This document shows, piece after piece, positions 18,710-20,618 of a stretch of DNA of 64,000 bases. The position numbers were made by a program, and so were the translations under genes. The stretch is from an uncultured bacterium (GTDB lineage: Bacteria; Cyanobacteriota; Vampirovibrionia; Gastranaerophilales; Gastranaerophilaceae): NCBI GenBank assembly GCA_949286705.1, contig CASEDF010000001.1, forward strand, positions 124,001 to 188,000, given 5' to 3'. The notes below the pieces were generated by a model. The model had not been told where the DNA came from and ran no database searches. It saw only the letters and a program-made list of their open reading frames with translations. How positions within the stretch are numbered: position 1 is the first letter of the stretch; every line of letters begins with the position of its first letter.

Positions 18710-19831
18710 TTACCTTATCTGAACAGGCATAATCAAACATACGAAATCTTCTTCGCTGTTCGGTCTTAATACTGTTGCAGATAATCCTGTGTTTAAACCT
18801 ATTTTTACTTCTTCACAATCAATATTTTTCAATGCTTCAAGTACATATTTATAATTAAATGCTATAAGCAAAGGTTCAGATGTGTATTGAATATCAATCT
18901 TTTCTTCTGATTTACCTGAATCCGGTGTATCTGCATTCAAGGTTAATTCATTATCCGCAAAGTTCATTTTTACAATGCTTGTTTTTTCATTAACCATAAT
19001 TGACACACGCTCAAGTGCGGATATTAATTGTGAAACATTTACGACAGCTTCTTTCGGACTTTCTGACGGTATTAATTGATTGTATTTCGGAAATTGTCCG
19101 CTCAAAAGACTTGATATTGTCGTTGTTCTTTCAGATTTTATTATTAATTTTGTTTTTTCAATATAAATTTTTACACTATCTTCATCAATATATGCACTCA
19201 TTTTAATGAATTCATTAAGCGTTTTTGCAGGGATAATAAGTTGTTTTGTTTTATTCTCTTTATTATCAATATGCTCTCTAACACGTGCAAGTCTGTTTCC
19301 GTCGGTTGAGGCAATTTCAAGAACCTGACCTGAAATATCACAGACTATACCTGATAAAAGATTACTTGTTTCATAGCCGGCCGCAGCAAATCCTGCCTGT
19401 CTTATTGCTTTTGAAAAAGGTTTTAATTCTATTTCAAAACTTTCTTCATCACTCACGTCAACATTATATACTTCCGGCGGAAATTCGTTTGCTGAAATAC
19501 CAATAATATCAAATTTTGAATTTTGGCAGGTAATATTAACACTTGTTTCACCTTCCGGCATTTCAAAAGTTATTAATTTATTACCCAATTTTGATACAAT
19601 TTCATTTAAGGTTTTTGAAGGGAGTGTAATTTTGCCGTTTTCTTCAACTTGAGCATCAACCAATGCTGTTACAGTCAAATCCAAATCTGTTGCGACAAGT
19701 CTTATGGTACCTTTATCAACAGTTTCTATTAATATATTCATAAAAACAGGCTGCAAAGCTTTCATGCTTGTTGCACGCTCTACTATTTTTATACCCTCAA
19801 ACAAATCCTCTTTTTTTACGACAAATTTCAT
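18710..19831 (-). CDS. dnaN: DNA polymerase III beta subunit (sliding clamp)
   Basis: A 373-residue clamp that forms a dimeric ring on DNA and tethers the replicative polymerase. Three clamp-fold domains are recognisable: MKFVVKKEDLFEGIKIVERAT at the start, TLPSKTLNEIVSKL and ATDGNRLARVREH in the middle, and the conserved end VLRPNSEEDFVCLIMPVQIR. Its length is typical. It is not accompanied by dnaA or recF. The region immediately upstream holds repeated DnaA-box-like motifs and very AT-rich DNA. Confidence 0.97.
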   Translation of the reverse strand: MKFVVKKEDLFEGIKIVERATSMKALQPVFMNILIETVDKGTIRLVATDLDLTVTALVDAQVEENGKITLPSKTLNEIVSKLGNKLITFEMPEGETSVNITCQNSKFDIIGISANEFPPEVYNVDVSDEESFEIELKPFSKAIRQAGFAAAGYETSNLLSGIVCDISGQVLEIASTDGNRLARVREHIDNKENKTKQLIIPAKTLNEFIKMSAYIDEDSVKIYIEKTKLIIKSERTTTISSLLSGQFPKYNQLIPSESPKEAVVNVSQLISALERVSIMVNEKTSIVKMNFADNELTLNADTPDSGKSEEKIDIQYTSEPLLIAFNYKYVLEALKNIDCEEVKIGLNTGLSATVLRPNSEEDFVCLIMPVQIR

Positions 19832-19899
19832 TAAAAGCTCCTTTTATAATCCTTTAACTAAATTTTATAATAAAAATGTTTTCAAAACAAACTAATGTA

Positions 19900-20240
19900 A
19901 AGAAGTTTAAAAAACTATAGTTCGGGTTTTCTTTTTGTTCAAAATTTTATTTATTAAATATTATATTAAAATAATAAATTATAAATATAATCATAATAAT
20001 AAGCCTTAAATATTTGTAGAAAAGTGTTTAAAAGTATTATTATTATTGATTTTTAATAGTAGAAAGATTTGTAGAAAAAATAATAATAAAAACATAAAAA
20101 AGTAGAAAAAAATAAAACAACAAAAAATACGGTAGAAAACTCATGGGTTTTCTACTGTATTTAACATGTTTTTCTACAGCAATACATCAAAAGGATGATT
20201 TTTTTAAGTTTTATTTAAAAATATCCGTTATTATTACAAA
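19900..20240. other. Candidate replication origin (oriC) next to dnaN
   Basis: This gene-free 420-bp gap has an extremely AT-rich half (about 19935-20110). It also has a cluster of the 9-mer TTTTCTACA or its complement TGTAGAAAA: exact at 20015-20023, 20070-20078 and 20170-20178. One-base variants lie at 20101-20109, 20131-20139 and 20148-20156, and a weaker one near 20058-20066. The 9-mer differs by one base from the cyanobacterial DnaA box TTTTCCACA. The variants at 20131-20139 and 20148-20156 form a hairpin (GTAGAAAAC, six bases, GTTTTCTAC). AT-rich unwinding region plus a box cluster beside dnaN is a classical origin layout. Confidence 0.6.
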
Positions 20241-20252
20241 AGGAGTTATTTT

Positions 20253-20618
20253 ATGTTTAATTCGGTAAACAATCCATTTAACAGAAAAATAGAATCCTCA
20301 ACTTCCTCAGACAGCAATAAACACCAACAACCCCGTGAACAAAAAAAAGAAGAAAAGAAATATCTTGAACAGGAAGAACAGGACGAAGTTAAAATCGGCG
20401 GGCTTCCTTTGTTGACTGAAGACGAAGTTCTTATGATGACAAAATCATATATTAATAATTTAAAAGCCGAACACGAAGATAATCCAAAAATAATTAATAA
20501 ATTAGACAAATTTCTTGAAAAATTTGACGTCCAAAAATTCATGAAAAAAAATCCGAAAATGACCAGTCCGGATTTTTATATGGTAATATATAATGAGACA
20601 GAAGGACTGGTTAAATGA
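20253..20618 (+). CDS. Conserved-looking hypothetical protein, highly charged
   Basis: A 121-residue cytosolic protein with a strong AAAGGAG ribosome site. The first 50 residues are disordered and polar (SSTSSDSNKHQQPREQKKEE). The second half is helical (LLTEDEVLMMTKSYINNLKA and FLEKFDVQKFMKKNP). I recognise no family. It is first after the candidate origin and overlaps the next gene by 4 bp (ATGA type), so the two are co-translated. Confidence 0.7.
   Translation: MFNSVNNPFNRKIESSTSSDSNKHQQPREQKKEEKKYLEQEEQDEVKIGGLPLLTEDEVLMMTKSYINNLKAEHEDNPKIINKLDKFLEKFDVQKFMKKNPKMTSPDFYMVIYNETEGLVK

Follow-up and report, generated by a model that had tools for sequence, protein, structure and literature searches.

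The 421-bp intergenic region beside dnaN in an uncultured Gastranaerophilales bacterium is, with high probability, its chromosomal replication origin (oriC), one of an order-wide set in which position 6 of the DnaA box appears to have shifted and the initiator DnaA to carry a compensating change, D433K. The window analysed is a 64,000-nt stretch of DNA (C1:124001-188000, where contig C1 is 255,550 bp long and belongs to a 1.85-Mb draft genome of 41 contigs), and this region of it is very probably where copying of the chromosome starts. The 9-mer TTTTCTACA is strongly supported as the predicted DnaA box of the order. Several independent sequence signals underlie both the oriC and the DnaA-box readings; DnaA would bind the region, melt it and start replication there.

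Few regulatory words in bacteria are as conserved as the DnaA box, whose consensus has C at position 6. Gastranaerophilales are non-photosynthetic relatives of cyanobacteria that are common in the gut. A whole order of gut bacteria using another letter, together with a change at a base-reading residue of the initiator, would make a clean and directly testable case of initiator-origin coevolution. If the reading is true, it amounts to a natural one-residue specificity switch, with an initiator and box that have ceased to cross-react with the cyanobacterial pair. It would also supply an origin marker and a motif for genome annotation, coverage-based growth-rate estimates and future plasmid design; default motifs fit the group poorly.

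The intergenic region

The features below were placed using the ORF map, base composition, Pfam matches and comparison with relatives.

18710-19831, minus strand: dnaN, DNA polymerase III beta clamp, 373 aa (Pfam PF00712, PF02767, PF02768)
19832-20252, no strand: proposed oriC intergenic region, 421 bp, 82.4% A+T (from ORF map, composition and V-shaped contig skew)
19936-19944, minus strand: TTTTGAACA, second motif conserved across the order's origin regions; may be an additional DnaA site, between the unwinding element and dnaN
19946-20003, no strand: stretch with 96.6% A+T, putative duplex unwinding element, overlapping the trio (from composition)
19988-20002, minus strand: DnaA-trio-like repeat TTA TTA TTA TGA TTA (dnaN sense), 12 nt after the box at 20015-20023
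20015-20023, minus strand: predicted DnaA box TTTTCTACA, exact, closest to the unwinding element and in the same relative position in relatives
20070-20078, minus strand: predicted DnaA box TTTTCTACA, exact
20101-20109, minus strand: predicted variant DnaA box TTTTCTACT, differing at position 9
20131-20139, minus strand: predicted variant DnaA box TTTTCTACC, differing at position 9
20132-20155, no strand: inverted box pair with an 8-bp centre, GTAGAAAA-CTCATGGG-TTTTCTAC on the plus strand
20148-20156, plus strand: predicted variant DnaA box TTTTCTACT, differing at position 9
20170-20178, plus strand: predicted DnaA box TTTTCTACA, exact
20253-20618, plus strand: divergent 121-aa ORF directly flanking the proposed origin, without a Pfam match

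Six TTTTCTAC sites in both orientations fall within 164 bp between dnaN and the divergent gene. The first-pass annotation had described them as three exact and three one-base-variant boxes in about 165 bp, and all were found again, at 20015-20178; the single-base change of each variant is at position 9. The 255-kb contig has 21 copies of the 8-mer TTTTCTAC, six of them in the cluster, and the rest of it holds at most one copy per 500-bp stretch. There are 41 copies of TTTTCTACA genome-wide (1.85 Mb, 41 contigs), forming no second cluster in the assembly; no other listed place has even two within 500 bp. TTTTCTACA is one mismatch from the cyanobacterial motif, as had been stated, and two from the E. 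coli motif; the cyanobacterial difference is T rather than C at position 6, and the box of the order thereby departs from the canonical TTWTNCACA, with its C at that position. No TTTTCCACA box is present in the intergenic region 19832-20252. Most members of the family keep the inverted pair around CTCATGAG, in many cases as the perfect palindrome GTAGAAAACTCATGAGTTTTCTAC.

Read in the dnaN sense, the last TTTTCTACA (20023-20015) is followed by a 12-nt spacer, then TTATTATTATGATTA (20002-19988), then sequence of 97% AT that continues to 19946. Most relatives have TTATTATTACTATTA or CTACTACTACTA 12-15 nt after the last box. A basal unwinding system (BUS) is recognized by three or more DnaA-trio repeats no further than 16 bp from a DnaA box, and three TTA units lie 12 nt from the box here. 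In published surveys of bacteria the box-trio spacer peaks at 10-13 bp with a maximum near 16 (PMC8287927), and the DnaA-trio is 5'-CTA-3' on the corresponding strand (PMC8235120). The succession of box, spacer, trio and ~97% AT sequence has the architecture of the bacterial basal unwinding system.

Of the features that identify an oriC, the window holds a box cluster, a skew minimum (at the resolution of the method), an AT-rich element and a linked dnaN. The candidate oriC with a variant box that the first-pass annotation proposed thus stands, backed by the skew V and by an array, trio and AT-rich element that recur across the order; the AT-rich stretch that it placed beside the boxes is the one at 19946-20003, and the dnaN that it placed next to the cluster adjoins the intergenic region. 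It was also right that dnaA is not nearby, the sole copy lying on another contig, at C3:30409-31794. The encoded protein matches PF00308 (AAA+), PF11638 (N-terminal) and PF08299 (C-terminal helix-turn-helix) above cut-off. On the other flank, several genomes of the genus also have the start region of the 121-aa ORF upstream of their array.

GC skew

The cumulative GC skew that had been suggested as a check was computed, in this draft assembly, over the whole of the 255,550-bp contig. It describes a clean V whose lowest point, C1:146507 (window 22507), is 2.4 kb from the box cluster. A two-mean change-point falls at 146 kb with a bootstrap interval of 140-154 kb, inside which lies the cluster (144.0-144.2 kb), and a skew as deep as the observed one did not arise in any of 20,000 block permutations. 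No comparable minus-to-plus switch was found in 20 stretches of contigs C2, C3, C4 and C6 (C5 and C7-C41 were unsampled). A distant minimum accompanied by another box cluster, which had been named as the outcome that would speak against an origin here, was seen in neither of its parts: the assembly has no other TTTTCTACA cluster, and the sampled contigs lack such a switch.

A genome from another family of the order (G046) behaves likewise. On its 852-kb contig C1, dnaN lies at 263 kb and the skew switches between 260 and 266 kb, from -0.107 at 240-260 kb to +0.116 at 266-286 kb. All seven stretches left of dnaN have skew of -0.17 to -0.07, and 12 of the 13 to its right have +0.04 to +0.16.

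The box across the order

Named relatives were Candidatus Gastranaerophilales and Melainabacteria MAGs, 52 of which have at least 300 bp upstream of dnaN. At least three copies of TTTTCTACA are present upstream of dnaN in 46 of these 52 named genomes, and the totals over all 52 are 240 TTTTCTACA, one TTTTCCACA and one TTTTCAACA. With the other eight positions held exact, T stands at position 6 in 239 of 241 near-exact sites, and C at position 8 in 239 of 242 and at position 5 in 239 of 261. Positions 5 and 9 allow some change, position 9 being the most tolerant across relatives. In an unbiased 9-mer count over 50 dnaN-upstream regions of the order, TTTTCTACA and its overlapping shifts rank first, with 191 occurrences in 42 genomes against 0.85 expected. 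In genomes of the phylum outside the order, clusters near dnaN are made up of TTTTCCACA, TTATCCACA or TTGTCCACA, and each of these boxes has C at position 6.

Three genomes of the family (G016, G134 and G022; loci L259, L261 and L263) have no cluster at dnaN. Loss of the motif was considered for them and rejected: each has a five-box array 5-6 kb away, which indicates that linkage to dnaN was lost locally and the array retained. One further genome of the family, G017 (L091, L109, L265, L266), is very AT-rich, has N433 and a long branch in the tree, and shows no DnaA-box-like array near dnaN or dnaA.

Two readings would deny the repeats their role at an origin. Chance or low sequence complexity might be imagined to have produced a cluster of AT-rich 9-mers in a region that is 82% A+T and so favours T-rich words, the more so as single-mismatch box matches are in slight excess over the whole window (58, with 43 expected). 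When the AT-rich intergenic sequence itself was shuffled with a Markov model, no more than three TTTTCTAC copies appeared in any of 20,000 trials, against the six observed, and the conservation across the order (the 191 occurrences above) already refutes this reading; we rejected it, and its probability is negligible. It is also very unlikely, if less extremely so, that the repeats are sites of another protein, for instance one that represses dnaN or the divergent gene, with the origin elsewhere nearby. The location between two divergent genes and the operator-like inverted pair with its conserved centre are what such sites would look like, but four observations speak against it: the distance to a trio and AT-rich element is nearly constant at 12-15 nt, the skew switches at the site in two families, the array is kept away from dnaN in G016, G134 and G022, and the motif is one base from the cyanobacterial DnaA box.

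The DnaA recognition helix and position 6

In E. coli DnaA, bases are read by residues 399, 423, 432-435 and 438-439, among which the Asp-His pair 433-434 is highly conserved (PMC5043019; see also PMC7561715). The recognition helix reads NKKHTT in the window's genome versus RDHTT in E. coli, B. subtilis and M. tuberculosis; the canonical pair is there represented by K433 and a retained H434. We compared 73 DnaA proteins of the phylum, using E. coli numbering. Residue 433 is D in all 22 cyanobacterial-type outgroup proteins, K in 45 of the 48 from the order (R in two and N in one), and T in three from the sister order. Genomes that have both D433 and a box cluster carry C at position 6. The order occupies one side of a well-supported branch (98/94) of the tree, rooted at its midpoint, which is consistent with a single D-to-K change. 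DnaA has the contact string RPRKHTTLY in families f2, f3, f4 and part of f6, where cyanobacteria have RPKDHTTLY, so that 433 is there the only listed contact position to change residue class; the box of these families is likewise TTTTCTACA. The window's own family differs at residue 423 too (P to E).

In the sister order (G127, G143, G153; L186, L187, L188, L256, L257) the helix is RTHSS (T433, S435, S436) and no canonical box array is visible near dnaN. No clear repeated 9-mer was found near dnaN or dnaA in these three genomes, and these genomes may use yet another box that has diverged more. G127 has a CTA trio just upstream of dnaN.

In the E. coli DnaA-DNA complex it is the 3' part of the box that the recognition helix reads, and the group exposed at the base is an amino donor in cytosine and a carbonyl acceptor in thymine. 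Asp433 would accept a hydrogen bond from the cytosine amino group, and Lys would donate one to the thymine carbonyl, so exchanging an acceptor for a donor would fit the exchange of cytosine for thymine at position 6. On this basis we infer a causal link between D433K and the position-6 change. The two would most likely have been fixed together, the C to T change being tolerated alongside Asp433 to Lys in the ancestor of the order. A stricter version, in which a single D433K, arising once in that ancestor, switched position 6 from C to non-C (T, or A in some genera) and the origins were rewritten to match, has in our estimate about an even chance. D433K and the box change are essentially one event on the tree, which makes this a correlation between lineages rather than repeated covariation and leaves cause unproven by it.

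The oriC and its boxes could instead be genuine and D433K incidental, the box change having drifted with low G+C or position 6 being set by other residues (423, 436, 439). This seems unlikely to us, though it deserves serious weight. The genomes are AT-rich (the window is about 35% G+C), C-to-T is the common direction of change, the tree offers one clear D-to-K event, and some genera have A at position 6 with K433 unchanged. Yet C is kept at position 8 (239/242) and as the main base at position 5 (239/261), a pattern other than general AT drift that weakens a purely compositional explanation, and 433 alone changes residue class in the f2, f3, f4 and part-f6 proteins.

The motif TTTTGAACA bears on how the link should be worded. 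It is enriched near origins across the order: 30 of 50 genomes have it there, with 48 copies in total against 1.7 expected, and L044, L078, L084 and L088 are among the relatives concerned. Most of the window's genus have one copy between the AT-rich element and dnaN. In four other genera of the family (G020, G027, G033, G034) it outnumbers TTTTCTACA in the origin regions, with four to six copies and few or no TTTTCTACA, and K433 is unchanged. That TTTTGAACA can largely replace TTTTCTACA despite K433 means that the relation of residue to base is not one to one; the order may perhaps be better described as needing a non-C base at position 6.

Proposed initiation and comparison with known origins

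In the origin reading, DnaA encoded elsewhere in the genome would recognize the TTTTCTACA array by means of the helix-turn-helix in its domain IV. Starting at the box at 20015-20023, it would form an ATP-dependent filament reaching over the trio at 19988-20002, and would then melt the 97% AT element at 19946-20003 and load the helicase.

The oriC of Synechococcus elongatus PCC 7942 (dnaN-linked, 11 TTTTCCACA boxes; PMC3480399) is similar in its intergenic position beside dnaN, its distant dnaA and its TTTTCNACA box array. It differs in having C, not T, at position 6 and no clear V-shaped skew, and DnaA of the sampled cyanobacteria has D, not K, at 433. The Bacillus subtilis oriC BUS (boxes 6/7, spacer, DnaA-trios; PMC8287927, PMC10721633) shares the order of last box, 12-15 nt spacer, trios and AT-rich duplex; here the box sequence is shifted, the trio is TTA-rich with one TGA unit, and there is no obvious second box in tandem beside the last one. 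The nearest precedent is Epsilonproteobacterial DnaA (H. pylori, A. butzleri; PMC5043019) with its preference for T at position 5, likewise a lineage-wide change in box preference with the same recognition helix altered, although there position 5 and residues 435, 438 and 439 vary, and here position 6 and residue 433. Thermotoga maritima also pairs a divergent DnaA with a divergent box, AAACCTACCACC (PMC10225481), but that is a 12-bp motif rather than a one-base shift.

The open-access PMC literature yielded nothing relevant on origins of Gastranaerophilales or Melainabacteria, or on TTTTCTACA as a DnaA box; subscription papers and DoriC tables fell outside this scope, and database entries may list predicted origins for such drafts.

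Some members of the family encode a second, divergent DnaN-like protein, at G025:C3:35066-36133 (26% identity) and G119:C22:28511-28855.
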